64,000 nt of DNA from Lutraria lutraria (taxonomy: Eukaryota; Mollusca; Bivalvia; Venerida; Mactridae): contig OZ026848.1 in assembly GCA_964023205.1 (NCBI GenBank), forward strand, positions 4,764,501 to 4,828,500, given 5' to 3'. The notes below the pieces were generated by a model. The model was given only the letters and a program-made list of their open reading frames with translations. It had not been told where the DNA came from and made no database searches. The position numbers were made by a program, and so were the translations under genes. Below, piece by piece: positions 1,904 to 18,153 of the stretch; positions within the stretch are counted from its first letter, which is position 1, and each line of letters starts with the position of its first letter.

Positions 1904-1911
1904 TATTTATA
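1904..1911 (-). promoter_or_regulatory. TATA box for the MVDVQP-repeat gene
   Basis: TATAAATA on the minus strand lies 36-43 bp upstream of the ATG at 1868. That spacing predicts a very short leader. Confidence 0.6.
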
Positions 1912-1957
1912 CTTTTTGCCTGCACGCGCCAGTGTTCTATTAGGTCAAGGTTATTTT

Positions 1958-2066: not shown

Positions 2067-2146
2067 TATATTGTACACATCAATACATCATACAATCACA
2101 GCAATTTGCATACATTTGTGGGAATACTTTGTACACATCATACTAA

Positions 2147-2440: not shown

Positions 2441-2647
2441 GTTGAAAATGATTGTACACATCATACTATCACAGCACTTTGTAGGAAAAAATGTTATAAT
2501 GTTTATAGGAAACTCTATAAAACGTACACTTACCCCACACCGTCTATTTGTATTTGGTGTTATCAGATAGGAATGTAAATATAGTAGTAAATAGTAAAGT
2601 ATGATAATATTGACAATATGAGAGTGATTCTTTCTGAATTGTATGGG

Positions 2648-2663
2648 GGCCCTGAAAAGGGCC
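2648..2663 (-). terminator. Histone-type 3' stem-loop, internal, distal
   Basis: GGCCCTTTTCAGGGCC on the minus strand, identical to the TIR stem-loop but outside the TIR. A CAGAAAGAATC purine tract follows downstream. It belongs to the gene ending at 2705. Confidence 0.68.
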
Positions 2664-2669
2664 GTTGGT

Positions 2670-2685
2670 GGTCCTGAAAAGGACC
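2670..2685 (-). terminator. Histone-type 3' stem-loop, internal, proximal
   Basis: GGTCCTTTTCAGGACC plus ACCA on the minus strand, starting 19 nt after the stop codon of the 107-residue gene. This is the usual placement in histone genes. Confidence 0.68.
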
Positions 2686-2704
2686 GTTGGTGCTTGTATG
2701 GGGA

Positions 2705-3028
2705 TTAATGGCGTTGACCGCATCTCCCCATACAAGCGGGACACCACTTGTCCCATTTCTGGACATCCTTGGGGTCCGGTGTAGGTTGGTAGAGGTTCGA
2801 CGGAACCTCCGTGAGTTCATCTTCCCAGTTCTCTGGGGTTGATTCTTGAGGGGTATCCCCCCAGTCCTCTTCCCCAGAGCTGACCACAACCTCCTCTACA
2901 AACTTCTTCCCCTCTCTCAGCTCTTTTACCTCTAGCCTCAACTCTTCTAACTGCATCTCCAGTTGTTCAATATACCGCCCTAAGGCAGCATATTTTCTCT
3001 TAATAATATTAACTGTACGTTGAGACAT
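2705..3028 (-). CDS. Polinton accessory coiled-coil protein with Cys tail
   Basis: 107 residues from ATG 3028. Residues about 10-45 are a strong coiled-coil candidate (heptads of L/I in YIEQLEMQLEELRLEVKELR). An acidic, Trp-containing segment follows (SSGEEDWGDTPQ). The C-terminus is WCPACMGRCGQRH, with three cysteines that could bind metal. The overall plan (coiled coil, Pro-rich linker, Cys tail) is shared with the gene at 17424-17900, though I see no residue-level homology. It is divergent from the gene at 3205 and shares its CCAAT-box region. Two histone-type stem-loops follow the stop. No family recognised. Confidence 0.65.
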   Translation of the reverse strand: MSQRTVNIIKRKYAALGRYIEQLEMQLEELRLEVKELREGKKFVEEVVVSSGEEDWGDTPQESTPENWEDELTEVPSNLYQPTPDPKDVQKWDKWCPACMGRCGQRH

Positions 3029-3091
3029 CTTGATACAGAATGAAATTAGATCAAGGCAAGGTCACTCACTGACTATGATACAAGGACTCTG

Positions 3092-3144
3092 ATTGGTCCA
3101 TTTTAACGGTATTTCATTGGTCTATTTTAACGGCATTTCATTGG
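3092..3144. promoter_or_regulatory. Three phased CCAAT boxes in a divergent promoter
   Basis: ATTGG (inverted CCAAT) occurs at 3092-3096, 3116-3120 and 3140-3144, exactly 24 bp apart, each with a GTC or GTT context typical of NF-Y sites. The region separates the divergent genes at 3028 and 3205. I see no TATA box on either side. Confidence 0.6.
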
Positions 3145-3204
3145 TCTGTTCTAGGTCAGTGTTTTTCTCATGTTCCATAGCTCATTTATGTTTCATGATT
3201 CAAC

Positions 3205-3432
3205 ATGGGCAACTGCTTGAAAAGTTCTTCTGATGAACCTGATGAGTTACAAGAAGATGTTTGGGTGGTCAAGATGGGTAATTTGTACCCAGACTTGTCT
3301 GAATTCCAAGATGTTAGTGTTGTCAAGATGGATATCAAGATGGGTAATTTATACCCTGACCTTGCCATGTATTATGATGAGGATTTGAGAGCCAACTATT
3401 GGCGGTACTTATTTCTTGCAGAAATGCAATGA
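3205..3432 (+). CDS. Small acylation-type protein with two LYPDL motifs
   Basis: 75 residues from ATG 3205. It begins MGNCLKSSSDE: Gly2 for N-myristoylation and Cys4 for palmitoylation. From memory, the first seven residues equal those of the acylated host E3 ligase RNF11. A KMGNLYPDL segment occurs twice, with matching DNA, so it is an internal duplication. LYPxL is the known ALIX-binding late motif of retroviruses; YPDL also fits the YxxPhi AP-2 signal. The rest is acidic and ends in an aromatic tail (YYDEDLRANYWRYLF). A histone-type stem-loop follows the stop by 10 nt. Together these suggest a peripheral membrane adaptor that recruits ESCRT or sorting machinery; this is inference. N-myristoylation usually prefers Ser/Thr at position 6, and here it is Lys6-Ser7. 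Confidence 0.75.
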   Translation: MGNCLKSSSDEPDELQEDVWVVKMGNLYPDLSEFQDVSVVKMDIKMGNLYPDLAMYYDEDLRANYWRYLFLAEMQ

Positions 3433-3442
3433 ATTACCCAAC

Positions 3443-3458
3443 GGCCCTTATTAGGGCC
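3443..3458 (+). terminator. Histone-like 3' stem-loop, variant loop
   Basis: GGCCCTTATTAGGGCC plus ACCA. The stem and flank match the histone element, but the loop is TATT instead of TTTC. An AAAGACAAAAG tract lies about 35 nt downstream. It follows the LYPDL gene on the + strand. Confidence 0.55.
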
Positions 3459-3523
3459 ACCATATGTGTTAGATTCGTTTTATATCTCGAGCAAAGACAA
3501 AAGCATATTACATTGTCTATCAT

Positions 3524-3529
3524 TTTATT
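3524..3529 (-). terminator. Poly(A) signal for the zinc-knuckle gene
   Basis: AATAAA on the minus strand, about 117 nt past the stop at 3646. There is no histone-type loop here. Confidence 0.45.
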
Positions 3530-3645
3530 TTTGAAAACATTCTGAGTAACAAAGTACAACAAAGTACAACACAATACAACTCACTTAGTCTCCAATTTAA
3601 GTCTATACACAATTGTCCAACACATTGTCCAACACATTGTCTGGA

Positions 3646-3999
3646 TTACACAAAGTCACTCACAGTTTTTGTTGGATTCTTTTTGTATTTACGTTTTTTC
3701 TTACTCTGTTCTGCGTCCTGTAGATCGACCTGTTCACCTTGTTTCTTAGGACAGTCTGCGATGAAATGTCCTTGTTCATGACAATAAAAACATTCATTTT
3801 TATCGACGGTTTCCGTACAGCTTGTAGAATAATGTCCTTTCTTTCCACAACGATAACACTTGATATGATCCCATGTTACATTTTTCTGTCCACAGAGCTG
3901 ATCCGCTAAGTTGTTAAGCTCTTTAATTTTTTTCTTTAATGAATACATCAAAGTTTGATCTCGGTTCTCTTCAACTTGGTTCATTTTAGGATCGCTCAT
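3646..3999 (-). CDS. Two-zinc-knuckle (CCHC) protein
   Basis: 117 residues from ATG 3999. Two perfect C-x2-C-x4-H-x4-C knuckles lie at residues 48-61 and 70-83, the arrangement of retroviral nucleocapsid and CNBP-type proteins that bind single-stranded nucleic acid. The N-terminal third has a short coiled-coil candidate (LKKKIKELNNLADQL). The C-terminus is basic (KKKRKYKKNPTK). A TATAAAAG box lies just upstream in the 110-bp space shared with the divergent polymerase gene, suggesting co-expression with replication. Gag-like or host-derived origin cannot be decided from this sequence. Confidence 0.8.
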   Translation of the reverse strand: MSDPKMNQVEENRDQTLMYSLKKKIKELNNLADQLCGQKNVTWDHIKCYRCGKKGHYSTSCTETVDKNECFYCHEQGHFIADCPKKQGEQVDLQDAEQSKKKRKYKKNPTKTVSDFV

Positions 4000-4032
4000 G
4001 TTGAAATGATAAAAAACGGACGGAGCGTACGT

Positions 4033-4080
4033 CTTTTATAGAGTGTCACGCGTTGTGACCTTGAACCCGAAGTATAAAAA
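4033..4080. promoter_or_regulatory. Divergent TATA-box promoters (zinc knuckle / PolB)
   Basis: The minus strand has TATAAAAG at 4033-4040, 34 bp above ATG 3999. The + strand has TATAAAAA at 4073-4080, 29 bp above ATG 4109. The + box is why I place the polymerase start at 4109 rather than at the upstream GTG 4043. Confidence 0.6.
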
Positions 4081-4108
4081 ACGGCGGAGAAGTTCTAAGA
4101 TCATAATC

Positions 4109-7100
4109 ATGTCAGATACCGACAGTACTAGTGGTGAGGATGAACCTCCAACTAAACGAAGTAAGTTTGAGCCTGTGCGCGACTATTATAACATACAGTC
4201 ACGCATGGAAAGAAAGTCAAGGAAATTCAAGACTCAATCTAGAGTATATGATGTGACATTTCAGCCTTATAATCAATCGTTTGAATTTACAAACAGGGTG
4301 TTTAATGATATGATGGATCAGCTCTACAAGAGATGTGAAGTGAAGTCGAATGATCGAGTTCGAGTATCTATTCTACATCCTGATTTGGACTTTGGGATAC
4401 ATGTTCCGTTTAATAGGGCATCTCGTATTAGTGGAGATACATTGTTGGATGAAATTGAACGTGTGGCACAAAGTAACCGTCAATTTAAAATTCATGATGG
4501 GGCGGCACAGATGGAAATTACGCATATTGCTATGCCACAGGGATCCGGAAAGAAAACGTTTAAAGCACCAAACTTATCCAGTATGCGGAAGTCAAAGACA
4601 AGTGTTGTGTGTATTGACAATAGTAAAGACTCTATGTGTTTAGCTAGATCGATTGTGGTAGGACGGTGCAAAGTACATGAAAATCAAACCCCGGAATGGA
4701 AAAAACGATGGGGTCTTATACGTCACTCTAAGAAAAATCTTCAAAAATACGAAGCTGAAGCATTATTAAAGCAAGTGGGTATTTCATCGGATCAGTCGTG
4801 TGGTATAGAAGAATACCAAAAACTACAGGACTATCTCTATCCAGGCTATGTGATTAAAATCCATCCACAACATTATGGAAGTGAATTGTTATTCAAACCA
4901 CCTGCTATGACTGAAAAAAGTCGTGTGATTCATATCTTTCACCATGATAATCATTATGACTGTATCGTATCCATTACCGGATTTCTCGGACGGGGTTATT
5001 ATTGTGAATGGTGTGATATCGGTTATGATCACCGTGAAGGACACCAGTGTAGCCATATTTGTCAGTGTTATGCTCACACCCTGTGCCTAGCAGGACAATC
5101 TATAAGATGTCCGGATTGTCGTCGCCTATTCCAGAGTCAGGCATGTTTTGACAATCATAAAACAAAAACGGGAAAACAACGTAAAACCATTTGTGAATCC
5201 GTATGGAATTGTAAGAAATGTGGGCAAAAGGTGATTGGAACGAAACGGAGTCACGTTTGCCCAGGGACAAAGAAATGCAGGTGTTGTAAAGCCATAGTAG
5301 GACCAGATCATGACTGTTACATTCCAACGTATGAACCACTCGATAGAAAACAACCAGAAGTACCATTCATCTTTTTTGATTTTGAATGTCGTTTTGATTC
5401 TGGAGAACATATCCCTAATTTTTGTGTGGCTCAACGTGCTTGTGGTGACTGTATGTGTAAGTCAGTGAAAACTCCATGTGAGTATTGTGAAGAGGTGAAT
5501 GAAGCCAGACAAATGACATTCCGTGGTGAAAATACGTTACAACAATTCTGTACTTGGCTATTCCTCCCTACCCATCGAGGATCGACAGTGATAGCCCACA
5601 ATGCTCAAGGCTATGACGCTCAGTTTATTCTTAGATATGTGGTCACTCAGGGGACGGCGAAACCCCAGTTGATTATGAATGGTAGTAAAATCATTCAATT
5701 GAGAGTGCATGGAATACGCATGATTGACTCCCTCAGTTTCCTGAGTATGCCTCTCTCCGGTTTTCCCAATACATTTGGACTGACCGAGTTAGCCAAAGGA
5801 TGGTTTCCATTCTATGCAAACACCTTGGCGTATCAAGATTATGTGGGACCTTATTTGCCGCTACACTTTTACAAACCGGATAGTATGAAACCAGAGCGAC
5901 GTGAAGAGTTTTTAACCTGGTACAATGAAAGAAAAGGTGACGTGTTTGATTTTCAAAAGGAAATGGAGAAATACTGTCAATCGGATGTGGACATTTTAAG
6001 ACGCGGGTGTGGAGAATTTCGTCAACAATTATTGGAAAGTGATCAAATAGATCCATTTACTGAAGCTACCACATTAGCTCAAGTGTGTAACAAAGCCTGG
6101 CGCAAAAATTCCATGCCACCTCATAGTTTAGCCGTGATTTCGGATGCCGGGTATCCCAATAAAACCCGGTATTCCATGAAAGGCATACGTTGGCTACAAA
6201 CGATGGCTGTCACCGAAGAGATACATATTCGGCATGCCTTGAATAACAAAGGCGAAGTCAAAATTGGACCTTATTACGTGGATGGCTATTGTCAAGAGAC
6301 CAACACCGTGTATGAATTCATGGGATGTTGGTACCATGGGTGCCCCACCTGTTTTCCTAACCGAAGTACCATTAATCCGTATACTTTGAGAAGCATGCAA
6401 CAGGCCTATCACGATACGTATAAACGACTGGAGTCTTTGAAAGAACAGGGGTACCCTGTTGTGGTCATGTGGGAATGTGAATTTGATCAGCGTTGTCAAA
6501 AGGATCCTGCCTATAAGACAAGAGTGGAACGATTCTATCATGGTCAAGGCCCGATTCAACCCAGGGAAGCTTTGTTCGGAGGTCGTACGAATGCCATCCG
6601 ACTGTATCATGAAGTAGACAACGATCAAGAAATCAAATATGTGGATATTTGTTCTCTCTATCCGTATGTGAACAAGTACAGGGCTTATCCGATAGGTCAT
6701 CCAGTGATCATGAGTCAAGAACAAATTGATCAACAGCATATTGAGAAATACAAAGGACTGATTAAATGCCGTGTTCTACCCCCGCAAGATTTATGGATGC
6801 CTGTCTTACCCATACACTGCAATAGCAAAATGGTGTTTACGCTATGTCGTACTTGTGCTGAGAAGGAGATGGATTATTGTACACATTCACCGTATGAACG
6901 GTTCTTGTATGGCACATGGACTCATGTTGAATTGGCTAAAGCTATTGCTTTAGGCTATCAAGTATCAAAAGTGTATCATGTATGGCACTGGGATGAATGG
7001 AGTACGGACGTCTATCGGCAATACATTGACAAATACTTGAAAATGAAACAAGAGGCTAGTGGATATCCTCCAGGGGTGGATACGGAAGAGGCTCAAGATA

Positions 7101-7899
7101 AATTTAAACAAGATTATTTTGAAGCAGAAGGAATTCGTTTGCAACAGGTGGAGAAAAATCCAGGAAAACGAGCTTTTGCCAAAACCATGCTGAATTGTCT
7201 CTGGGGTAAAAATGCTCAAACTAACCTCTTGCCTAAAACAGAGTATGTTCATCGATTGGACCAGTTCTACGGAATACTGAACGATCCTAAAAAGTCTGTG
7301 AAATATGCAGAGTGTTTTGATCATGATGAATTCATGTTAATGAATTATACTGTGAATCGGACAAAGCAGACCCTCATTCATCATCCAATCCTGTGGTGGC
7401 TTCATTTGTGACGGCTTATGCTCGATTAGAACTGTACAAAGTGCTTGAACCTCTAGGAAAGAGAGTACTGTATTTTGACACAGACAGTTGTATGTACATT
7501 CATGACCCTGATGGCTATAATGTTCCTATTATCTCCAGTCGATTGGGAAAATGGACAGATGAGGTACCAAAGGGTCGTATTGTGAGATATGTCGCTTTAG
7601 GTCCAAAGAACTATGGCTATGAATACATTGAAAACGGTGAACTCCATCAAAAATGCAAAGTGAAAGGTATTACGTTAGACTACAATGCCACTCAACAAGT
7701 GAATTTCAATACGATGGTGGATTGTGTGAAAGACAGACATCATTATTCGACCGTAGTTGAATATGCTTCTCGGATTAAACGTCATAAGGACAGAACCGTG
7801 ACCAGTGAGAAACAAGTCAAAACATTTCGTTCGGTGTATACCAAACGTATTGTGGTCGAGAATCATATGACTGTGCCTTATGGTTATCTACATGACTGA
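4109..7899 (+). pseudogene. POLB: Protein-primed DNA polymerase B, one frameshift
   Basis: This is the Polinton replicative polymerase. The first frame (4109-7411) has an N-terminal region with the family motif SMCLARSIVV, then several Cys/His clusters (about residues 290-400). The 3'-5' exonuclease motifs follow: FFDFE near 423, HNAQGYDAQF near 500 and YCQSDVDIL near 622. An inserted VSR-like nuclease segment (YVDGYC...YEFMGCWYHGC) spans about 722-790. The palm motifs are DICSLYP near 846 and NCLWGKN near 1028. That frame then stops at 7409-7411. The last palm motif, YFDTDS (near 7470), and the C-terminal end lie in another frame, up to TGA at 7897-7899. The break falls near 7370-7395 and removes the catalytic aspartates from the first product. 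It may be a real mutation or an assembly error. Confidence 0.93.
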
Positions 7900-7964
7900 C
7901 CTTGACCTTTTAGGATACCTTTTGGCCTAGAACAAGTCATCTAAAAGTCATTATTCATAAAGAC

Positions 7965-8591
7965 ATGGATTGGATACCCTTACTACCGATAGAGCTGAGA
8001 CTTAAAATTTATCGTTATGTCATATGGGCTAACGCTAAAACATGGAAGATGGAGTTAGTGCACACATGGGCTACTCATAATGCTATACATAGCTTACAAC
8101 ATACAAATCATCGAAAGATAGAGAGACTGTTGAAGGATGTAGGTGATCGCCAGGACTTGTCATTCAACCAAAAATTACCTATTCTACGAAAACTGAATGT
8201 GGTACAACAAAGCTTAGATCGTATGTTATCTACGACATGGGATTTTTTAATCCACGATGCTAATTTGAGCGACGTATCTGCCTTAGCTAACAATTTTCGT
8301 TCTACCCCCAATGTGATATGGTTCAGTATGGCTGAAGAGGACAATGGGAGATCTCACCCCGGATGGCGTCAGTATTCACAGTTTAAAATACGTGGTATCA
8401 TGGTATTTAAGAGACAGGTACCGTTCACTCATGTTATTCATATTCTACAGTATCGTGCCGTGTTCTATATATTAAGGCATCGCTTAAGAGAAGTCAAAGA
8501 CGAGATTGAAGCCGTTCATGCGAATCGACCTAGAATAGTGATTTGTTCAGGAAATATTCAATTATGGTTAAACCATCTAGACGATTTATAA
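7965..8591 (+). CDS. F-box-like N-terminal protein
   Basis: 208 residues from ATG 7965. It opens MDWIPLLPIELRLKIYRYV, which matches the LPxELxxxIxxYv start of F-box domains. Similar short F-box-like starts are known in Polinton and large DNA virus proteins. The remainder has no repeat or domain I recognise. It contains long amphipathic stretches and a final Trp-rich segment, and it overlaps the next gene by 28 nt. If the F-box is real, it would connect an unknown substrate to an SCF ubiquitin ligase. That is inference. Confidence 0.7.
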   Translation: MDWIPLLPIELRLKIYRYVIWANAKTWKMELVHTWATHNAIHSLQHTNHRKIERLLKDVGDRQDLSFNQKLPILRKLNVVQQSLDRMLSTTWDFLIHDANLSDVSALANNFRSTPNVIWFSMAEEDNGRSHPGWRQYSQFKIRGIMVFKRQVPFTHVIHILQYRAVFYILRHRLREVKDEIEAVHANRPRIVICSGNIQLWLNHLDDL

Positions 8592-8851
8592 GTTTATATT
8601 ACATTTTGGACTTTGAGCTGTATACGGATACGTTATACAGTATTGTACAAGATGACCTTGTCAAGGTCAAGGACATTCGCGCGTGGATTCTGAACCCTCA
8701 CACGTTTGAACTATTTAGACAGATGATTCGTGATGCTATGATCAGTGCACACTTAGACTTGAAAGCTATCCATCGAGACGATTGGAATACTTATGTATGT
8801 AACGATAGAGTGATTCACACGATTCAAGAGTGGAACAGTTTGATATTATGA
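8564..8851 (+). CDS. Polinton protein of unknown function (96 aa)
   Basis: ATG 8564 gives MVKPSRRFISLYYILDF; an earlier TTG in the same frame is less likely. The gene overlaps its upstream neighbour by 28 nt and its stop overlaps the next ATG (ATGA). The protein is mixed alpha/beta in composition, without cysteine clusters or membrane segments. I recognise no family. Its place between the polymerase and the ATPase is typical for variable Polinton genes. Confidence 0.6.
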   Translation: MVKPSRRFISLYYILDFELYTDTLYSIVQDDLVKVKDIRAWILNPHTFELFRQMIRDAMISAHLDLKAIHRDDWNTYVCNDRVIHTIQEWNSLIL

Positions 8852-9192
8852 ACCATACCCTGTTGAGAAAAGCATTGGTATTTGCTTATCGTATGAAGAT
8901 ACCTGAAGGTCATCATTCTCTGGAATGGATTCGACAACAGTTGAGTACACCAGACATGTTTGAAGAAATGAAACATGGACTTCATGTGATGAATTCATTT
9001 TATAAACAATCAGTACCCATGGACTTGAGTGAAACGGATTGGTTCAAACAGGTGGTGAACAATGACTCTGTGTTAACATTTCTGAGTCAATTTGGACATT
9101 CAGAATGTGTGTTTGAATTTTCTGACAAACTGTTGTTACCCTTACATGACATGTGTTGTTCTTGTTGTGATTATTCTTGTACTCATACCTAA
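8848..9192 (+). CDS. Polinton protein with C-terminal Cys cluster (114 aa)
   Basis: The start at ATG 8848 overlaps the previous stop by ATGA coupling. The body is helical and rich in Met and Phe. The last residues carry CCSCCDYSC, six cysteines within about 12 residues, that could bind metal or form disulfides. An AATAAA pair at 9232-9241 follows, so this may end the polymerase-side transcript. Function unknown. Confidence 0.6.
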   Translation: MNHTLLRKALVFAYRMKIPEGHHSLEWIRQQLSTPDMFEEMKHGLHVMNSFYKQSVPMDLSETDWFKQVVNNDSVLTFLSQFGHSECVFEFSDKLLLPLHDMCCSCCDYSCTHT

Positions 9193-9231
9193 ACTTGTAA
9201 AGAACTCAATCATGTTTTATCTGGTTACACA

Positions 9232-9241
9232 AATAAATAAA
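9232..9241 (+). terminator. Tandem poly(A) signals
   Basis: AATAAA occurs twice (9232-9237 and 9236-9241), 40 nt past the stop of the preceding gene and just ahead of the ATPase gene. Confidence 0.5.
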
Positions 9242-9281
9242 ATGTTTTTCTTCCAATAGTGTTAGTTGTGATTTTCACGTC

Positions 9282-9929
9282 ATGGAGTCCAGTTTACTTT
9301 TTAAGCATCCTTGCAATATGTTTATCTCAGGCCCTAGTGGCTCTGGTAAAACACAATTTGTAAAAAAGGTGTTGGAATACAAATCAGATTTGTTTCAAGT
9401 AGTACCAGAGCGTATTGTATGGTGTTACAAAGAATGGCAAGTAGCCTATGCACAGTTACAAGAACAAGAACCTAGTATTCGGTTCATACAGGGGATACCT
9501 GACGAGGATGAAGAGATAGTAGAGGATACATCCATTCCTCATTTAATTATATTTGATGACATGCTTGGTGATAAAGATGAAGAGAAAATCAAATTATGGT
9601 TTACACGAAAAGGTCACCATCGTAATGCTAGTGTGATCTACATTACACAAAACATGTTTCAACAATCGAAAGCCAGTCGTACCCTGAGTTTAAATGCACA
9701 TTACATGATCTTATTTCAAAACACAAGAGATAAAGGACAAATCAAAGTGTTGGCGAATCAAATTCAATTGCCACACTTGTTACCCGCTTATCAAGATGCT
9801 ATCTCTACACCTCATGGGTATTTAGTGATTGACTTTCACCCTCAAACACCAGACAGTTATCGGTTAAGAACAGATATTTTTCATCACTGGATCACTGGAG
9901 AAAAACGTGGACCAGTTGTGTATATATAA
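9282..9929 (+). CDS. ATP: Genome-packaging ATPase (FtsK/HerA, A32-like)
   Basis: 215 residues from ATG 9282. Walker A is GPSGSGKT at 17-24 and Walker B is LIIFDDM at 88-94; an ITQNMF sensor-type strand follows. The length and layout match the Polinton packaging ATPase, which is related to the A32 family and is thought to pump DNA into the capsid. The gene is intact. Confidence 0.93.
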   Translation: MESSLLFKHPCNMFISGPSGSGKTQFVKKVLEYKSDLFQVVPERIVWCYKEWQVAYAQLQEQEPSIRFIQGIPDEDEEIVEDTSIPHLIIFDDMLGDKDEEKIKLWFTRKGHHRNASVIYITQNMFQQSKASRTLSLNAHYMILFQNTRDKGQIKVLANQIQLPHLLPAYQDAISTPHGYLVIDFHPQTPDSYRLRTDIFHHWITGEKRGPVVYI

Positions 9930-9930
9930 A
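9923..9930 (+). promoter_or_regulatory. TATA box, core-protein gene
   Basis: TATATAAA overlaps the end of the ATPase gene and lies 33 bp before ATG 9964. TCAGTC at 9955-9960 has initiator-like sequence at the right distance. Confidence 0.55.
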
Positions 9931-9963
9931 CATCGTTTACTCATATAAGATCATTCAGTCATC

Positions 9964-11142
9964 ATGTCAGCCACAGCCATAGCTCAATCGTTAGAACATT
10001 TGGGTCAGGAACGAGACCCTACTGTACGGGAGCAAATGCTACGGTCTGGATTAAAAGAAATGCTCAAGTGGTTCACCTTAGCAGCAAAGGTGATTTTAAA
10101 AAAGAAAATTGTGCTACCTAAACAAACACAAAACTTTATGCAAAAACATCAGCATGAATTAGAGCAGCTGGGAGATGATCAAGTGGACATGGATACTAAA
10201 CGTCAACTCATATTGAAACCAGGAGGAGGTGGATTTCTTGGTGGAGTCATGATACGAAGTTTACTCCGATGGAATGGTCAAAAGACGATTCGTAAATTCG
10301 GTCAGCAAGCAAGAAAATCTCCAGCTAAAAAAGCCAGAAAAGCGCCTGCTAGAAAACCTAGAAAATCTCCAGCTAAAAGAGCAAGAAAAGCACCAGCCAG
10401 AAAAGCTCCAGCTAAAAAAGTAGTCAGAAAATCGCCTGCCAAGATCAATGAACGTTTTATTACTCTCCGTCGTCGAAAGCAAACCACTTCAACACCCTCT
10501 ATAGCTGTAACTCCAATCAGTAAGTTACAATGGTCTCCTATCAGTCCTGTGAGTAGTTTGAGCTTTAGCTCATCTAGAAATTCATCTAAAAGCTCATCTC
10601 AAAATTCTTCTAGAAGTGGACCAAACAGAAGTTTTACTTCTCAGAATCCATCTAAAAGTTTAAGAAGTTCATCTAGAAGTTTATCTAGAAGTGGACCAAG
10701 CTCTTTTAGCACACCTAGAAGTTCAAGAAGTTTATCAAGAAGTGGACCAAGCAGTTCATCAAGAAATTTATCTAGAAGTTATTCAAGCAGTGGGCCAAGC
10801 AGTTTATCTAGAAGTGGACCAAGCAGTTTGAGTTTGAGTTTATCTAGAAGTTCGCCAAGTAGTTTGAGTTATTCAAGCAGTGGGTCAAGTAGTTTATCTA
10901 GGAGCACACCTAGAAATTCATCTAGGAGTTCATCCAGCAGATCATCTAACAGTTCATCCAGTAGATCACCTCCCAGTTCAAGAAGTTCACCAGACACTCC
11001 ATTGTGCCGTTTTTCACCCCTATCCTTATCTACCTTATCAAGACAGGCTGTCTTGAAACCCCTTTTGAGACATCGTATTCACCTGATGAGACAGGGCCCT
11101 ATGAATCCAGCTTCAAGACAAGCCTTTGATGCTTTAGTATAA
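9964..11142 (+). CDS. Basic core-type protein with SPAKK repeats and Ser/Arg tail
   Basis: 392 residues from ATG 9964. The N-terminal domain (about 1-100) is homologous to the next gene: both share a LKEM/SKEM helix, an NVL or VILK segment, an LxxLxxD region and a KR(Q/V)L...GG end. Residues about 115-160 are a histone-H1-like array of KSPAKKARKAP units, the type that binds AT-rich DNA. A long Ser-rich region with SRS and SGPSS repeats (about 185-350) follows and could be heavily phosphorylated. This suggests a DNA-condensing virion protein comparable to adenoviral core proteins; the role is inferred. Confidence 0.8.
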   Translation: MSATAIAQSLEHLGQERDPTVREQMLRSGLKEMLKWFTLAAKVILKKKIVLPKQTQNFMQKHQHELEQLGDDQVDMDTKRQLILKPGGGGFLGGVMIRSLLRWNGQKTIRKFGQQARKSPAKKARKAPARKPRKSPAKRARKAPARKAPAKKVVRKSPAKINERFITLRRRKQTTSTPSIAVTPISKLQWSPISPVSSLSFSSSRNSSKSSSQNSSRSGPNRSFTSQNPSKSLRSSSRSLSRSGPSSFSTPRSSRSLSRSGPSSSSRNLSRSYSSSGPSSLSRSGPSSLSLSLSRSSPSSLSYSSSGSSSLSRSTPRNSSRSSSSRSSNSSSSRSPPSSRSSPDTPLCRFSPLSLSTLSRQAVLKPLLRHRIHLMRQGPMNPASRQAFDALV

Positions 11143-11145
11143 AAG
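11138..11145 (+). promoter_or_regulatory. TATA box embedded in a stop codon
   Basis: TATAAAAG includes the TAA stop of the preceding gene and lies 36 bp above ATG 11181. Confidence 0.5.
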
Positions 11146-11180
11146 CTGTGAAGAAGTAAAAACAGGTATTATTTGACATA

Positions 11181-11552
11181 ATGGCACCAAAGAGACCACT
11201 CCTGCATAAATACGGACATCTGGTTTTGGGTTTAACTCAAGCCCCAGATGGGTTAAGAAGAAAGATGATACATGGAGCATCTAAAGAAATGATTCAATGT
11301 GTGGCAGAATGCTGTCAGAATGTTTTAAAAGGCAATGTTGCCTTATCCCCCTCTCAAAAGCAAAGGTTGAAGTCCAAGCGTCAACATCTCCGCACTTTAG
11401 CAGATAAAAGAGTATCCATTCAAAAAAAGAAACGTGTGTTGAATCAAAAAGGAGGATTATTTCCATTACTGGCTCTTGCTCCAATCATTGCTAAAGCTGT
11501 TGCTGCAGGAGCACTCAGTGGAGGTGTTGCCACACTGGTGAAAAAGCTATGA
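11181..11552 (+). CDS. Core/PX-type protein with hydrophobic C-terminus
   Basis: 123 residues from ATG 11181. It has a basic N-terminal helical domain paralogous to the start of the preceding gene. A GG hinge follows, then a hydrophobic segment (LFPLLALAPIIAKAVAAGALSGGV) ending VKKL. Small proteins with this KR...L.QKGG(F/L) plus hydrophobic tail recur in invertebrate Polintons and resemble adenoviral minor core proteins in plan. The tail could insert into membranes. The stop overlaps the next ATG. Confidence 0.75.
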   Translation: MAPKRPLLHKYGHLVLGLTQAPDGLRRKMIHGASKEMIQCVAECCQNVLKGNVALSPSQKQRLKSKRQHLRTLADKRVSIQKKKRVLNQKGGLFPLLALAPIIAKAVAAGALSGGVATLVKKL

Positions 11553-12298
11553 AGAAAATGGCTATCGTCCCATTCAAAATGCTAGAAGAGATGAATCGAT
11601 GGAAAACAGAACAACGACCACGTTTACCTCCTCCCCCGCAAGTCAGTCAAACATCCGATTTACAGAAACAAATGGGAGACGTATTACAAAATGAATCGTT
11701 GTCTGAATCAGAAAAAGCACAACACTATGGGCAAGTCTTGCAAAGGTTTCAACTGTCTCATCAAAAAGCACGTGAACCGGCTACTCTGGCTGCACCGGTT
11801 GCACCGGCTGCACCGGTTGTTCCAGCTGCTCAAGGTGCACAAGGGGCACAAGCGGCTCCTGCTACATTGACGGATCGGATTCTTGAAAGTGTTCCTACTA
11901 CCATGCGTCGAAAAACTCAGCTTTTATTACACTTTCTACAAAATCATCCCCACATGTCATGGAATGATCATGGGATGTTGGAATACCATGGAAAACCAAT
12001 ACAAGGATCCAACATTATTGATTTGGTCAATGATGTCATACGTCATAGAAAAGGGTCGGAGCCTAGAGGATGGGAACAGTTTTCTAGTGGACTAAGAGAT
12101 GTCAATGTACCACAAGAAGTGATAGGAAATAAACGGAGATGGTCATGGATGCAAAAAGCAGACGACTCGGAGGAAGATGATGAATTCTTTGATAGTTTTG
12201 TTGAGCCTCCTTCACCTATAAGTAAACGGATGAAAGCAGAACCTATAAGTAAACCTGTCAAACAGATGAAAGCAGAACCTAAGTGGGAAGCCTACTAG
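11549..12298 (+). CDS. Conserved Polinton protein with SVP..RRKxQLLL domain
   Basis: 249 residues from ATG 11549 (ATG 11558 is also possible). The N-terminal half is low complexity (PPPPQ and repeated APAAP/QGAQ). The conserved part, about residues 110-205, has the pattern SVPTTMRRKTQLLL...W...G...IxGSNIIDLVND..R......GW..F..GL...NVP, which I know from many invertebrate Polintons. A bipartite-looking acidic then basic tail follows, with two near-copies of an ISKPVKQMKAEP-type unit. Function unknown; its position among structural genes suggests a virion component. Confidence 0.8.
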   Translation: MKKMAIVPFKMLEEMNRWKTEQRPRLPPPPQVSQTSDLQKQMGDVLQNESLSESEKAQHYGQVLQRFQLSHQKAREPATLAAPVAPAAPVVPAAQGAQGAQAAPATLTDRILESVPTTMRRKTQLLLHFLQNHPHMSWNDHGMLEYHGKPIQGSNIIDLVNDVIRHRKGSEPRGWEQFSSGLRDVNVPQEVIGNKRRWSWMQKADDSEEDDEFFDSFVEPPSPISKRMKAEPISKPVKQMKAEPKWEAY

Positions 12299-12303
12299 AC
12301 AAC

Positions 12304-13377
12304 ATGAACAAAAAGGTAGACAGTCTGTTACATCAGATTTATTATGATCCCCATCATCCGGCTGGTTTTGGTGGGGTAGAACGTCTTACTACAGCAGCTC
12401 GAACTCAACTGAAATCCATTACGCCAAGTCAAGTGCGATCCTGGTTGAAGGGACAAAAGACCTATACCCTGCACAAACCTATCCGTAGGGCATTCTCGAG
12501 ACGGAAAACAATTGTGGGTGGTATTGATCATCAATGGCAAGCTGATTTGGCAGACATGCAATCCTTGGCTCAGTACAACACCCCTTATCGATATTTGTTG
12601 TGTGTCATTGACGTGTTTTCAAAATATGCTTGGGTCGTTCCCCTCAAGGATAAAACGGGGCTCACATTGGTGGAAGCGTTTCGCTCTATTCTTAAAACGA
12701 GACAACCTAAAGCGTTGCAAACCGATAAAGGAACAGAATTCAAGAATCAAAGGTTTCAACAGTTTTTAGACAAAGTAGGGATTCATTATTTTACGACTGA
12801 AAACCCAGAAACGAAGGCTAGTATAGTGGAACGTTTTCAACGGACATTAAAATCACGCATGTGGAAATACTTTACGCATCATAAAACACGAAGGTATATT
12901 CAGGTATTGCCTGATCTCGTGCATGCCTATAATCATCGTGTTCATCGTAGTATACAAATGGCACCCGTATCCGTGAATGAGAATAACGAATCTCAAGTGG
13001 CCTTGACCTTGTATGGAAAATCAAGAAAGAAAGCGTCGACGACCCTTCATGTGGGAGATATTGTTCGTATCAATAAAACAAAACGTACATTTGATAAAGG
13101 TTATCTACCCAACTGGACCACTGAACTGTTTAAAGTGATCCAAGTCAAAAAGACCTCTCCTGCTACTGTGAAATTGACTGATTTAGACGGAGAACCCATT
13201 TTGGGTTCGTTTTATTTCTCTGAAGTACAGGTTATAAAAGATGATGCTATCTATGAAATTGAATCAGTGCTCGCCCATCGCCAGAGTAAGGTAGACGGAA
13301 GACGAGAAATTAAAGTGCATTGGAAAGGTTATCCTTCGAAATTTGACAGTTGGATTCCCGAATCCCATCTCGTTTGA
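12304..13377 (+). CDS. INT: Retroviral-type integrase with chromodomain
   Basis: ATG 12304 gives 357 residues; an in-frame GTG at 12283 would overlap the previous gene. The catalytic core shows Asp81 (in QADLAD), Asp141 (QTDKGTEF) and Glu176 (SIVERFQRTLK), with about 35 residues between the last two. The C-terminus is a chromodomain of the form YEIESVL...VHWKGYPSKFDSWIPESHL, which could bind methylated histone tails and steer integration. The protein inserts the element and creates the 6-bp target duplication seen here. The frame is intact. Confidence 0.95.
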   Translation: MNKKVDSLLHQIYYDPHHPAGFGGVERLTTAARTQLKSITPSQVRSWLKGQKTYTLHKPIRRAFSRRKTIVGGIDHQWQADLADMQSLAQYNTPYRYLLCVIDVFSKYAWVVPLKDKTGLTLVEAFRSILKTRQPKALQTDKGTEFKNQRFQQFLDKVGIHYFTTENPETKASIVERFQRTLKSRMWKYFTHHKTRRYIQVLPDLVHAYNHRVHRSIQMAPVSVNENNESQVALTLYGKSRKKASTTLHVGDIVRINKTKRTFDKGYLPNWTTELFKVIQVKKTSPATVKLTDLDGEPILGSFYFSEVQVIKDDAIYEIESVLAHRQSKVDGRREIKVHWKGYPSKFDSWIPESHLV

Positions 13378-13396
13378 ACTGGTTAATAAATACATC

Positions 13397-13642
13397 ATGT
13401 CTCAAACTGATACGGCCAGTGTGGTAGTGACTGCCTCAGAGCAAACCAAATTGTGTGAACCCATAAATAAGGTCATTTTTTTGTCACAAATTGTAGTGGT
13501 ATTTATTATTATTACCGTATCGCTATTTAATTTGTGTTTTCAACGACCCGATCGAGAATTGTGGCTTCTGCTTTTAAGTAGTTCTCTAGGTTATATTCTA
13601 CCGAATCCCTCCTTTAAATTCAATAAACCTAAATCAACATGA
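13397..13642 (+). CDS. Small two-span membrane protein
   Basis: ATG 13397 gives 81 residues; the frame is open from an upstream TTG inside the integrase. Two hydrophobic segments are clear: VIFLSQIVVVFIIITVSLF and ELWLLLLSSSLGYILPNP. The second motif recurs in Polinton small proteins. The stop overlaps the start of the capsid gene. A membrane role in entry or exit is possible but unproven. Confidence 0.75.
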   Translation: MSQTDTASVVVTASEQTKLCEPINKVIFLSQIVVVFIIITVSLFNLCFQRPDRELWLLLLSSSLGYILPNPSFKFNKPKST

Positions 13643-14481
13643 GTTCGTTTTACATTACACTCATGAGTGATAGCTCTATGGATTTATTCCAAGACAATAC
13701 GCAATGTTGTTTTCGTACCAAACTGGCAAAACCCATCCATCTCAATAAACAAGACTGGGAAATTGCCTTAGTGGAAATGATTGTTCCTAGTCAGGTCATT
13801 AATGTCACTGAAGAAGAGCGACATTTCTACATTGTCACACACGATCCTGTCCTGGGTAAGGCCTTAGAAAACTTTGAGAACTATTGTACTCTCCCCAATA
13901 AAGAAGAAAAAGGTGTACGACTTTGTATTCCTATAGGAACTTATGTCACACCCCAACATTTGATCGAGACGATTGACTTTACCGTGAAAGATCAATTAGG
14001 TAAAATATTTAGACAGAAAGGGCTTCGATTTACCATGGGTTTTTCAGGACAAAGTAAACGCGCAAAACTGGACAGTTCGGATCAACTAGGCATTCAGTTT
14101 CATCCTCACATGTTTATTAAACTGGGTGGAGCCCCTGATAGTTCTTCTACCATCTTTTTTAAAGACACTCCAGATCCGTTTCCTCATGGCGTAGATATTA
14201 ACATGGGTCATAATCATTTGTTTGTTTATTCCGACCTCGCGTCTTATACCTATTTGGGAAACATAGAAGCCCCCATCTTACGTGTAGCTCCATTTGATCC
14301 GAGAACGAAAGCAGGAACTAACCCCCATATTCATTTCGAGTTCTTGAATTTACACTATGTACCACTGGCTAAAGCCGACTTTGACACCATCATTATCCAT
14401 ATAAGGGGTGACACTGGCCAGTCTATTCAGTTTATTCATCGGAAGTCTATGGTGAAACTACACCTACGTCAAAGACAATGA
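13639..14481 (+). CDS. Minor capsid (penton-like) protein
   Basis: 280 residues from ATG 13639. The opening SFYITLMSDSSMDLFQDNT followed by FRTKLAKPIHL and WEIALVEM matches the single-jelly-roll minor capsid protein of Polintons, which builds the vertices. The gene sits directly upstream of the pX/pVI-like and major capsid genes, the usual order. Intact. Confidence 0.85.
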   Translation: MSSFYITLMSDSSMDLFQDNTQCCFRTKLAKPIHLNKQDWEIALVEMIVPSQVINVTEEERHFYIVTHDPVLGKALENFENYCTLPNKEEKGVRLCIPIGTYVTPQHLIETIDFTVKDQLGKIFRQKGLRFTMGFSGQSKRAKLDSSDQLGIQFHPHMFIKLGGAPDSSSTIFFKDTPDPFPHGVDINMGHNHLFVYSDLASYTYLGNIEAPILRVAPFDPRTKAGTNPHIHFEFLNLHYVPLAKADFDTIIIHIRGDTGQSIQFIHRKSMVKLHLRQRQ

Positions 14482-14843
14482 TACCTACTTACCAAGGTCA
14501 ACCTCGACAATATGGACACGGACTTGGATCCATGTTTAAGAAAGCCATGAAAAGAATTATGCCTTTATTGAATCCATTTGTGAAATCTGGAGTTCACACC
14601 TTGAAAAAAGAAGGACTCCAGCAAGGAAGAGCCGCTATCAATGATATCTTGACAGGATCAAACGTTAAACAAGTAATACGAAAACGTGGAGCCTCTGTAT
14701 TAAAAGATGTGGGTGAATCCTTGCTACGTGCCGTGGCCAACCCTAAAAGACGTATAAAGAGCAAACCAGTCAAGAAAAGACCTCATTCGAAACTTCATCA
14801 TCGCCGAGTTAAGCAGGCCAGACCTCTTGATATTTTCGATTAA
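14478..14843 (+). CDS. pX/pVI-like basic minor virion protein
   Basis: 121 residues, start overlapping the previous stop (ATGA). It begins with a Q-rich GHGLGSMFKKAMKRIMPLL segment, an amphipathic helix after a Gly-rich turn as in adenoviral pVI/pX-type proteins. A strongly basic second half follows (KRRIKSKPVKKRPH...HHRR). It may be a protease substrate or membrane-active virion protein. The similarity is one of plan and position. Confidence 0.7.
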   Translation: MIPTYQGQPRQYGHGLGSMFKKAMKRIMPLLNPFVKSGVHTLKKEGLQQGRAAINDILTGSNVKQVIRKRGASVLKDVGESLLRAVANPKRRIKSKPVKKRPHSKLHHRRVKQARPLDIFD

Positions 14844-14845
14844 TC

Positions 14846-16144
14846 ATGATGCAACACGGTTCCTGTGAATGTAGTAAGACAGAGTTGGATGTGTCTGTTG
14901 TGCCACCTACCATGACAGCCATGCAAGAAGGTCAATGGACTGAGCATTATCCCATTTCTGCTCTGGACAATAATGCTCCGATTGAATTTGTGATTCCTGC
15001 ACAGACAGAAAAATGGACAGATCTGAATAAATCTTACCTGTACCTAAAACTAAAAATTATACAGGCAGATGGTACAGACCTAGCGGCCGACAGTGAAATT
15101 GCTACCGTCAACAATTTCTTTCACAGCATGTTCTCAAGCATTGATGTGTACCTGAATAATAAACTGATCACCAGCAATGCGGACACGTATGCCTATCGGG
15201 CATACATAGAAAATTTACTCTCCTTCACCTCAAGCTGTAAAGACACTCAGCTTCAGGCGTTAGAGTTATGGGCTGAAGACACCCCTGGTCATATGAACAC
15301 CCACGCACATGACGGGGATAACAAGGGCTATATTGAGAGGCGTGCTCGTGTCCATCAAAGTCGTGTGGTGGAACTATGTGGACGACTTCATTTGGATCTG
15401 ATGATGCAAGATAAATATTTACCCAATGGTATGGAAATACGCTTAAGGCTAAACAAAGCGTCACCCCAATTCTGTCTCATGGGTGCCGCACCGGCTAAAA
15501 TCAAGTTTCTAGAAGCAGGATTTAATGTAAGAACAGTAGATTTACTGCCAGTGGTAGCCAATCAACTCAATCAACAGATTGCTCAACATAACATGAAAAT
15601 CCCCATCCGACGAACTGAAGTAAAAACATTTACGATTCCTAACGGTCAACGATCCAAGATTGAAGATCATTTATTTCAAGGTCAATTGCCAAAACGACTT
15701 ATCATCGGTATGGTAAGAAATGGAGACATGAATGGAGACATGGCTACCAACCCCTTTGATTTCCGTCATTTTACACTGAATCATCTGGAAGTCAGCATTG
15801 ACGGAAAAAGTATTCATAACAAAGCGTTTCAACCCAATTTTCAAACGTCAGAAGTTCTAAGATCCTACATGTCACTTTATCAAGCGACAGGATCTCTTGG
15901 GCTCAATCGTTCATTTGGATTGAGCATGACTGATTATCGGTTCGGATACACACTCTGGGGGTTGGACTTGACAGCAGATCAAGGTTGCGAGGAAGGTCAA
16001 CTCCATCCTATAAAAACGGGCAATCTGAGATTGGAATTTCACTTTGGAACAGCACTTGCACAAGCCATCAACGTGATTGTATTTGCGGAATACGACAATC
16101 AAATTGAAATCAATCAATTCAGAGAAGTGCTTCTAGATTATTAA
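14846..16144 (+). CDS. MCP: Major capsid protein (double jelly roll)
   Basis: 432 residues from ATG 14846 (a second ATG follows at once). Features of the Polinton hexon-like protein are clear: an early YPISALDNNAPIEFVIP strand, SSIDVYLNNKLI, and a C-terminal block with YTLWGLDL...GNLRLEFHF...NVIVFAEYDNQIEINQ. It forms pseudo-hexameric capsomers. Intact, adjacent to the minor capsid gene. Confidence 0.94.
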   Translation: MMQHGSCECSKTELDVSVVPPTMTAMQEGQWTEHYPISALDNNAPIEFVIPAQTEKWTDLNKSYLYLKLKIIQADGTDLAADSEIATVNNFFHSMFSSIDVYLNNKLITSNADTYAYRAYIENLLSFTSSCKDTQLQALELWAEDTPGHMNTHAHDGDNKGYIERRARVHQSRVVELCGRLHLDLMMQDKYLPNGMEIRLRLNKASPQFCLMGAAPAKIKFLEAGFNVRTVDLLPVVANQLNQQIAQHNMKIPIRRTEVKTFTIPNGQRSKIEDHLFQGQLPKRLIIGMVRNGDMNGDMATNPFDFRHFTLNHLEVSIDGKSIHNKAFQPNFQTSEVLRSYMSLYQATGSLGLNRSFGLSMTDYRFGYTLWGLDLTADQGCEEGQLHPIKTGNLRLEFHFGTALAQAINVIVFAEYDNQIEINQFREVLLDY

Positions 16145-16145
16145 G

Positions 16146-16610
16146 ATGGAAGACATGGATATTGAACACCTGGAAAAAGGACAAGATAACGAAATGAAGT
16201 TATTGGCGTATCCTTGTTGTACAAGTTCAAAGACGGACTTTTTACAAGAGTGCTTGAATCATCACGTCACAGAAGCACTCCAATCTTTAATTTATAATCA
16301 AGTGCATAAAGACTGTTATGGTTGTCGAGTGAATCATCCTAGTCAAGTACAACATGTACTCTGCTTATACACGAATACGGAAGAGTGGACAGAACTTTAC
16401 ATTCAAAAAGCTTTTCAACGTTTGGACGTGTTCAAGGTCATGGAAAAGTGGTATCCTGAATTAGTGACCTTGACCGATAGTGAAAAAGGAGACGCGTGTC
16501 GATTATGGATTCAATTTAAAGAAGAACTCACTCAGAATCAGTTCATAGATCAGTGGATCAGTGTTTGGGCTGAACGTGTCAACAGAAATTGGCATTATGG
16601 AGACGAATGA
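16146..16610 (+). CDS. Conserved Polinton Cys/His protein
   Basis: 154 residues from ATG 16146, one base after the capsid stop. The centre has KDCYGCRVNHPSQVQHVLC, a possible zinc site (C-x2-C-x3-H...H-x2-C). The same YGCxVNHPSQ motif recurs in other animal Polintons. The flanks are helical and acidic. Overlaps the protease start by 14 nt. Function unknown. Confidence 0.78.
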   Translation: MEDMDIEHLEKGQDNEMKLLAYPCCTSSKTDFLQECLNHHVTEALQSLIYNQVHKDCYGCRVNHPSQVQHVLCLYTNTEEWTELYIQKAFQRLDVFKVMEKWYPELVTLTDSEKGDACRLWIQFKEELTQNQFIDQWISVWAERVNRNWHYGDE

Positions 16611-17196
16611 ACTACAATACCTATTAGATCATTCACCGTTATTAAAACCACTACATGCTCGTGTTTGTGCCAAAGATCAATTACCTTCAGAGAAACCGCA
16701 TGACGTGAAAGCCTATATTGTGAATACCCATAATGGGAATCAACCTGGAGAACACTGGGTGGCTCTTTATTTAAAAGACAATAAAGCAGTGTACTTTGAT
16801 TCCTATGGATTACCTCCTTTCGAAGAGATTCTATCCTTTGTGAAAAAACATGCCAGCAAAACTTATGTGTGGAATGCCATGAGAATACAAGGCGATATGT
16901 TACCGGTGTGTGGTGTGTATTGTCTATTCCCTTTGGATTTTATCTCACGTGAATGTGACTTGAACCAGATACTGTTAACCCGATTCAAACCGGACATGTA
17001 TGGAAAAAATGACACTTATGTGACGCATTGGTTTCATCAATATTATGGTACTTATTACATGCATGCTCAATATGTGAATAAATGTGGACAAAAGTGTTTT
17101 GCTCAACGTAACTCTAGACCAGAAGGTCACAGACGTTTGTATCATAGTATCATACATAGAAATACAACTCTTTATGGTGATGATTATATGGTGTAA
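16597..17196 (+). CDS. PRO: Adenain-like cysteine protease
   Basis: I prefer ATG 16597 (199 residues); a GTG 36 nt earlier is unlikely. The catalytic set is visible: His53 in GEHWVAL, Asp68 in YFDSYG, Gln98 in RIQGD and Cys105 in PVCGVYCL. This order is that of adenovirus maturation protease and Ulp1-type enzymes. It would cleave virion precursor proteins. AATAAA at 17239-17244 follows. Confidence 0.92.
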   Translation: METNELQYLLDHSPLLKPLHARVCAKDQLPSEKPHDVKAYIVNTHNGNQPGEHWVALYLKDNKAVYFDSYGLPPFEEILSFVKKHASKTYVWNAMRIQGDMLPVCGVYCLFPLDFISRECDLNQILLTRFKPDMYGKNDTYVTHWFHQYYGTYYMHAQYVNKCGQKCFAQRNSRPEGHRRLYHSIIHRNTTLYGDDYMV

Positions 17197-17238
17197 ACAA
17201 TGTTACTGTTTCATGTTGTTACTGTTTCTTGTTACAAA

Positions 17239-17244
17239 AATAAA
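17239..17244 (+). terminator. Poly(A) signal after the protease gene
   Basis: AATAAA lies 43 nt past the protease stop and is the last such signal before the accessory gene at the right end. Confidence 0.55.
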
Positions 17245-17330
17245 AGTTTAGAAAACTGAAACTAGGTGTCTGTTGTCTTTTTTCTAAGTTCATAAAATTA
17301 CCAATCAAGCTCCGCACATGCATCGGCGCG

Positions 17331-17397
17331 TGACGCCATCCAACCCTAGGGTGACGTCATCCAAGCAATATGACGTCATCCAACCACGAGAGTGGGC
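17331..17397 (+). promoter_or_regulatory. Triple CRE-like promoter plus GC box
   Basis: TGACG(T/C)CATCCAA occurs at 17331, 17352 and 17371; the last two contain perfect palindromic CRE sites TGACGTCA. GGGCGG follows near 17392. No TATA box is visible. The sites lie 50-130 bp upstream of the likely start codons of the last gene. Confidence 0.65.
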
Positions 17398-17423
17398 GGC
17401 GTAATACAATACTCCGTCTTACA

Positions 17424-17900
17424 ATGCCTCATTTCCTTCTGAGAACTCAAACACTCAAGATGGAGGCTTTATTCAATGAACTCAAAACAGCAAAACAACT
17501 GACTGAAAAACAGAGCAGGGTATGGCGTTCAATCAGTCGCTTAGCGGCTAGCATTGTTAGAAAAAGGGAACGTGATCTTCAAACCATTGGTGAGACTTTG
17601 AATACCATTGAAACCAATCGATTTCATCATAGAGAAGAACTGTCTCAAATGCGAGAGCAATTTCGAGATCAAGTCAGAGAAAGGCAGCGAGATGCTCGGG
17701 AACGAACGGCGAATAGACAACGGGAACAACAACAAGAAGAAGAGCATTGGCGTATCATCACTACCGCTCAAGTTGAGTACACGGAACAACCACCAGTACC
17801 AGAACAGGAATGGTCCTGTGGGGATCTAACATGCAGGCTCTGCTATCCCCCACCAGACTGCCAATGCGAACTATGTACCCAACCAGATCAGTCAGCATAG
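17424..17900 (+). CDS. Polinton right-end accessory coiled-coil protein with Cys tail
   Basis: The frame is open from ATG 17370, but that codon lies within the CRE repeats, so ATG 17424 or 17460 is more likely (158 or 146 residues). A long Arg/Glu/Gln-rich coiled coil (about 30-110) is followed by a Pro/Glu linker. The tail CGDLTCRLCYPPPDCQCELC has six cysteines and is probably metal-binding. The stop at 17898-17900 is 12 nt ahead of two histone-type stem-loops inside the right TIR. No family recognised. Confidence 0.7.
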   Translation: MPHFLLRTQTLKMEALFNELKTAKQLTEKQSRVWRSISRLAASIVRKRERDLQTIGETLNTIETNRFHHREELSQMREQFRDQVRERQRDARERTANRQREQQQEEEHWRIITTAQVEYTEQPPVPEQEWSCGDLTCRLCYPPPDCQCELCTQPDQSA

Positions 17901-17912
17901 ACAACTATCAAC

Positions 17913-17928
17913 GGTCCTTTTCAGGACC
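17913..17928 (+). terminator. Histone-type 3' stem-loop, first of two
   Basis: GGTCCTTTTCAGGACC then ACCA, 12 nt past the stop of the right-end gene. The 6-bp stem and TTTC loop match histone mRNA ends, with one compensated pair relative to the second copy. Confidence 0.7.
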
Positions 17929-17934
17929 ACCAAC

Positions 17935-17950
17935 GGCCCTTTTCAGGGCC
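17935..17950 (+). terminator. Histone-type 3' stem-loop, second of two
   Basis: GGCCCTTTTCAGGGCC then ACCA, matching the known histone consensus (GGCYCUUUUCAGRGCC) at every position. CGAAAGAAAA at 17963-17972 resembles a histone downstream element. Confidence 0.78.
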
Positions 17951-18153
17951 ACCATGTCTTTTCGAAAGAAAATTCTCTCATTGTCTAAGTCTATACACAC
18001 ACAAAACAATGGTCCCAGAACATTCCTAAAATTCAATTCATACTATTTTGGGGTACAACATTGATTTCCAATTTGTCCTAATTTGTCACAATTTTGAAAA
18101 CTTTGGGGACCAAAATGGGTGCAAATGGTCCCAGGGTATCGCCGTATACTACT

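Follow-up and report, generated by a model that had tools for sequence, protein, structure and literature searches.

Why should small genes of a virus-like mobile element end in the stem-loops of metazoan histone mRNAs? The question is raised by a 64,000-nucleotide stretch of the Lutraria lutraria genome (hereafter the window), which holds one integrated Polinton with seven histone-type stem-loops, which stand in sense orientation at the 3' ends of four small genes near its termini (A to D).

The element and its stem-loops

A type B DNA polymerase, an A32-type packaging ATPase, an integrase with rve domain and chromodomain, terminal inverted repeats and a 6-bp target duplication identify the element as a Polinton. 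Its features, and those of its immediate borders, are:

895-900: target-site duplication GTCATA, left, identical 6 bp on both sides
901-18153, no strand: Polinton (adintovirus-type) element, 17,253 bp, with terminal inverted repeats, PolB, A32-type ATPase, rve and chromo integrase and capsid homologues
901-1153, plus: left terminal inverted repeat, holding the gene A stem-loop pair; arms 901-1082 (96%) and 1076-1153 (100%)
1065-1868, minus: gene A, with QY and MVDVQ repeats and a basic tail
1090-1099, minus: gene A purine tract CGAAAGAAAA (HDE-like)
1112-1149, minus: gene A tandem stem-loops (GGTCC type, then GGCCC type); RF00032 35.8 bits, gathering threshold 34
2627-2636, minus: gene B purine tract CAGAAAGAAT (HDE-like)
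2648-2685, minus: gene B tandem stem-loops; RF00032 31.7 bits, E 3.4e-5, below gathering
2705-3028, minus: gene B, 107 aa, CPACMGRC near the C-terminus; 2 homologues in protein search
3205-3432, plus: gene C, 75 aa, N-terminal MGNCLKSS
3443-3458, plus: gene C single stem-loop, loop UAUU; RF00032 31.0 bits, E 6.5e-5, below gathering
3646-3999, minus: CCHC zinc-knuckle gene without stem-loop (contrast case); AATAAA 117 nt past the stop
4109-7411, plus: type B DNA polymerase, open piece; PF03175 E 7.5e-37
7492-7899, plus: second open piece, attributed to the polymerase from its position alone; no family match
9282-9929, plus: A32-type packaging ATPase; PF04665 E 3.9e-8
12304-13377, plus: rve integrase with C-terminal chromodomain; PF00665 E 3.1e-12, PF00385 E 1.3e-7; AATAAA 8 nt past the stop
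14846-16144, plus: major capsid protein candidate; 332 homologues
16597-17196, plus: adenovirus-type protease candidate; PF00770 E 0.038, under its cut-off; AATAAA 43 nt past the stop
17370-17900, plus: gene D, 176 aa, cysteine-rich tail; 2 homologues in protein search
17909-18153, minus: right terminal inverted repeat, holding the gene D stem-loop pair
17913-17950, plus: gene D tandem stem-loops; RF00032 35.8 bits
17963-17972, plus: gene D purine tract CGAAAGAAAA (HDE-like)
17975-17981, plus: CTCTCAT, a string shared with host H4 and H1, where it likewise follows the stem-loop
18154-18159: target-site duplication GTCATA, right, identical 6 bp on both sides

Among the matches listed for the capsid candidate (the best 120 of 332), the named homologues are mostly from bivalves (Mercenaria, Ostrea, Crassostrea and Saccostrea), with one from a bacterial bin; its profile found 0 matches among solved structures. 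Polintons and adintoviruses characteristically encode a double jelly-roll major capsid protein and an adenovirus-type cysteine protease, for both of which the element has candidates. Genes B and D show no clear family match, and their cysteine-rich C-terminal parts are reminiscent of small DNA tumour virus regulators. The MGNCLKSS of gene C is a possible myristoylation site. A tandem repeat with a unit of approximately 38 bp, as judged by eye, occupies approximately 2150-2440 between genes A and B, the distance between which varies among copies. Outside the element, 45371-48217 on the minus strand encodes a protein of 948 aa in which a weakly Kunitz-like N-terminal part is followed by many VDIR/VDVR repeats.

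All tandem pairs and the TATT-loop site described in the initial annotation were recovered at the same positions, six stem-loops being exact GGYYCTTTTCAGRRCC sites and the seventh the TATT-loop site at 3443-3458. The window contains 7 instances of a strict motif, defined by six paired bases with outer GG/CC, a T-A closing pair and the loop TNTN, where base composition predicts 0.028, and all 7 lie inside the element. Each site combines a 6-bp stem with a four-nucleotide loop carrying U at loop positions 1 and 3, which is the usual rule for histone stem-loops. Worm histone loops start with C (PMC1924863). The ACCA flank that had been ascribed to every pair is present at most sites, the second stem-loop of gene B being followed by CCCA.

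The Rfam Histone3 model (RF00032), the scan proposed in the initial annotation, matches on both strands at 1086-1132(-), 17930-17976(+), 2623-2668(-) and 3438-3483(+). The score exceeds gathering at two of the four sites, both of which are arms of one terminal repeat, and the other two have E below 1e-4. The pairs of genes A and D lie in opposite arms of the terminal inverted repeat, which agree at 100% over 78 nt, and so constitute one observation; the gene B pair stands in a 70-nt copy, 86% similar, outside the terminal repeat. That two of the three pairs, those of genes A and D, sit in the repeat arms would suit palindromes acting as DNA, in integrase binding or as terminal replication sites, but the signal of genes B and C lies beyond the repeats, and at all four genes the loop and its 3' flank are asymmetric and oriented with the sense of the adjacent gene.

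With respect to placement, the proposal that the loops terminate short genes in the sense direction holds past the stop codon for genes B, C and D, where the first loop starts 19, 10 and 12 nt after the stop in the window, respectively, but the frame of gene A in the window copy runs through its stem-loops to 1065. Among copies chosen by the motif, which all lie on contig C1, the stop of gene A precedes the first loop by 26-66 nt in 19/19 other copies, the terminal residues of gene B are unchanged in 17 of 19 (altered in L025 and L026), and gene C is present in 18 of 19, its end located 10 nt before the loop; these C1 comparisons for genes A to C leave out one of 20 copies (L032), which has no B or C loop in its stretch, and the variation of gene A was calculated also without the unmatched copy L014.

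No AATAAA or ATTAAA occurs within 250 nt downstream of genes A to D in the window. Such a signal is found within this distance in 9 of 17 other open reading frames, the polymerase counted as two pieces, and because the remaining 8 are equally without one the contrast is weak and suggestive only. In worm, histone genes retain AATAAA though their mRNAs end at the hairpin (PMC1924863).

Downstream tract and host histone genes

The purine tract described after the pairs is found 13 nt past the loop at the pairs of genes A, B and D, and is absent at the usual distance from the single loop of gene C. In each tandem pair this spacing applies to the second loop only. Approximately 24-29 nt past the stem-loop, CTCTCAT followed by a TTGTC-like string was noticed by eye at genes A, B and D (1081-1087, 2618-2624 and 17975-17981) as well as at host H4 and H1; it is possible that these two strings represent a further histone 3'-end element.

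The host assembly (728.5 Mb, 71 contigs) harbours a tandem histone cluster on contig C6. Host H4, H2B, H2A and H3 terminate in GGCCCTTTTTAGGGCC, 28-30 nt past the stop (locus L083), while H1 ends in GGTCCTTTTCAGGACC, the 16-nt core of which is identical to the GGTCC-type (first) loop of the Polinton. With RF00032, the host genes score 34.5 (H4), 33.8 (H3), 31.9 (H2A), 31.7 (H2B) and 30.5 bits (H1), so that most of the host's histone stem-loops also fall below gathering (34). The range of 30.5-34.5 bits overlaps with 31.0-35.8 bits for the Polinton, and the Polinton loops therefore score about as well as the host's own. At four loci with other histone-fold matches (L085-L088), no RF00032 match was present in the stretches examined.

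In mimivirus and the virophages, transcripts are polyadenylated at a hairpin just past the stop, the hairpin sequence being free. A poly(A) signal of this kind deserves consideration as virophages are relatives of Polintons and the hairpins of the present element also lie just past the stops. However, all four genes share one sequence class, rather than a palindrome of unconstrained sequence, this class matches the histone model and the host histone genes, and the purine tract follows 13 nt downstream at three of the four genes. We regard polyadenylation at these hairpins as very unlikely.

A search of the host genome with the U7 family model gave a best match of 29.2 bits and E 0.07 (best 65 of 192,230 candidates considered), which is under the cut-off. 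As the same model at E<=10 also matches in 12 of 14 prokaryote controls, matches at this level are noise. U7 snRNA carries the Sm site AAUUUGUCU; seven candidates (L089-L095) were inspected and were not convincing.

Variation among copies of the family

The motif with its ACCA flank (GGYYCTTTTCAGRRCCACCA) has 860+857 = 1,717 exact matches genome-wide, compared with 0/0 for the reversed control. Of 20 copies on contig C1 chosen by the motif, 19 share one arrangement of loops at genes A, B and C, L023 among them having a single loop at gene A, and in the stretch of L032 the A pair stands alone. A search of the genome with the capsid protein returned scored matches that are all 97-100% identical (best 97 of 474 candidates), which marks the Polinton family as both recent and abundant. 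With an oyster capsid protein as query, no second capsid clade emerged among the matches listed (best 91 of 460 candidates).

The number of motif matches, set against 47 histone-fold matches among the matches listed, most of them in one cluster, raises the question whether the loops mainly draw SLBP and U7 off the host histone mRNA. Loops in tandem at genes A, B and D, only the last of which adjoins the purine tract, would fit such a sponge. On the other hand, each site is placed as the 3' end of a gene and keeps the purine tract, which a sponge would not need, and we consider this role improbable.

As a comparison independent of the motif, the gene D end was inspected in 40 copies picked by hand on the basis of a capsid match, 20 from the 97 matches (none on C1) and 20 from the 91 scored with the oyster capsid. 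In the first set, pattern matching shows two loops in 15 copies, one in 2 and none in 3, so that 17 of 20 keep loops, and in the second, two loops are kept in 19 of 20, L135 being without a loop. Comparison with other Polinton copies, another check put forward at the outset, thus finds at least one stem-loop in 36 of 40 capsid-chosen copies, and CGAAAGAAAA is present in the same 36/40. In the three loop-less copies of the first set (L096, L098 and L100; upstream stretches in L116-L118), the gene D tail and both stem-loops are deleted by what looks like the same deletion, delineating a subfamily (3/20). The gene D pair is therefore not needed for every copy to spread. The capsid genes of these three copies are open and 99% identical.

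An alignment of the gene D end comprised 18 rows, 17 capsid-chosen copies and the window, with L096, L098 and L100 left out of the 20. Mean pairwise differences are low in the two loop units (0.014 and 0.024), in tract plus spacer (0.012) and in the coding tail (0.031), and higher directly past the stop (0.23) and further downstream (0.17). Among these 18 rows, 2 and 5 of 23 columns vary in the two loops versus 5/8 just before and 18/42 beyond, and the longest invariant run, 37 nt at 17950-17986, spans the purine tract and was matched in 40 of 20,000 column shuffles. The motif-chosen C1 copies agree with the capsid-chosen copies on this pattern of variation; L052, which ends like gene A and not like gene D, was kept in the C1 rows. 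The low variation of the gene B and C loops and of the gene A tract was not used as evidence, the rows having been extracted by those very strings. The conservation rests on shallow divergence, because all compared copies are close relatives.

These differences bear on two further explanations. If the element had captured histone gene ends and spread them as non-functional remains, this could account for the core shared with host H1, but variation in loops and tract is lower than in the adjacent non-coding sequence and no higher than in the coding tail, and the signal stands on four genes. We judge such remains very improbable. A function of the palindromes as DNA is likewise disfavoured by the outer terminal repeat, which is among the more variable stretches in the motif-chosen C1 rows (0.22 versus 0.00-0.02 for loops and tract), and by the existence of the three copies without the right pair. 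Considering also the two pairs within the repeat arms, we judge integrase binding or replication sites to be unlikely.

Among 180 units with at most 3 mismatches from known forms, 174 have six Watson-Crick pairs, the third pair being C-G or U-A; as these units were selected by similarity, only the pairing pattern is informative. The divergent remnant L010 retains a single loop and the tract. The number and spacing of stem-loop units differ among copies: at gene A, L029 has three units and L023 one, and the units of L119 are more widely spaced.

Putative histone-type processing and known systems

Cumulatively, we hold it to be about 80% probable, as judged from sequence, that this Polinton family carries genuine histone-type processing signals at the 3' ends of the four small terminal genes. 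This reading is based on loops of the metazoan class in the sense strand shortly past the stop, with the tract 13 nt on at genes A, B and D, on the near-identical loop of the host histone genes, on the lower variation of loops and tract compared to their surroundings and on the lack of AATAAA/ATTAAA within 250 nt. The use of the host histone 3'-end machinery, as suggested in the initial annotation, gains support from the RF00032 matches, from other copies that keep the signal and from the host loops. The Polinton thus probably borrows the host S-phase histone mRNA machinery for genes A to D, and we infer that their processing by SLBP and U7, for which sequence support is good, would replace polyadenylation.

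SLBP binds the stem-loop and the 5' region of U7 pairs with the downstream element (PMC7026596), and worm histone mRNAs end 3-6 nt past the hairpin (PMC1924863). By this route, the host SLBP would bind the Polinton loop, the U7 snRNP would pair with the purine tract and CPSF73 would cut a few nucleotides past the second stem-loop, while the first loop of each pair, which does not have the tract at 13 nt, would stay in the mRNA. By analogy with histone mRNAs, the mRNAs of genes A to D would have no poly(A) tail and would be made and kept mainly in S phase, whereas the AATAAA-bearing genes (protease, integrase and CCHC) would use ordinary polyadenylation. The element would then possess two mRNA classes, one tied to host DNA replication. 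A virus-like element with the same signal would connect mobile DNA to the host S phase through the 3' ends of its mRNAs and show how little a gene needs to become histone-like.

A broader scenario is tentative and in our view rather doubtful: a split transcriptome in which the accessory genes produce non-polyadenylated, S-phase-coupled histone-type mRNAs and the core genes polyadenylated ones, in which SLBP and U7 would act on protein-coding genes other than those of histones, A to D being the first such case known, and in which tandem loops in hundreds of copies would compete with the host histone genes for SLBP and U7 in S phase.

With respect to other elements, the pattern CCAACGGYYCTTTTCAGRRCCACCA has 0 matches in viral contigs, and neither the capsid protein nor the capsid alignment found relatives among them. 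The pattern GGYYCTTTTMAGRRCCACC has one match there (L004), located inside long overlapping open reading frames of a 61-kb contig and by eye a chance match in a phage. Three distant Polinton contigs were retrieved from genome contigs in bacterial bins, two from a tubeworm-symbiont bin (L001, L003) and one from a Breoghania bin (L002); RF00032 detects no stem-loop on them, the contigs being partial and possibly lacking the terminal genes. In the literature searched, outside which most subscription journals lie, no report of histone-type 3' ends in Polintons was among the matches listed. The portion of PMC11071296 consulted makes no mention of stem-loop, polyadenyl or hairpin, and PMC11071308 none of stem-loop, histone or polyadenyl, hairpin appearing once and only in a reference entry.

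In its core genes, the element resembles Polinton/Maverick elements and adintoviruses, with which it shares PolB, A32-type ATPase, integrase with rve domain and chromodomain, terminal inverted repeats and the 6-bp target duplication, but it differs from the three distant, partial contigs scanned by the histone-type 3' end. The closest counterpart of this end is the metazoan histone 3' UTR stem-loop (RF00032) with its histone downstream element: common to both are the six-base-pair stem, the four-nucleotide loop, the ACC flank (at most of the Polinton sites), the purine tract, which three genes have 13 nt downstream, the short distance from the stop and the near-identical loop on the host histone genes. 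In contrast to histone ends, the Polinton signal is carried by virus-like genes, in tandem at three of them, and its loops (UUUC or UAUU) differ from the UUUU of the host core histones. With the hairpin signals of mimivirus and virophages, the Polinton shares a hairpin just past the stop and the use by a mobile element of another genome's 3'-end rule; while in those systems the hairpin sequence is free and polyadenylation follows, stem, loop and flanks of the Polinton are of the host histone class.
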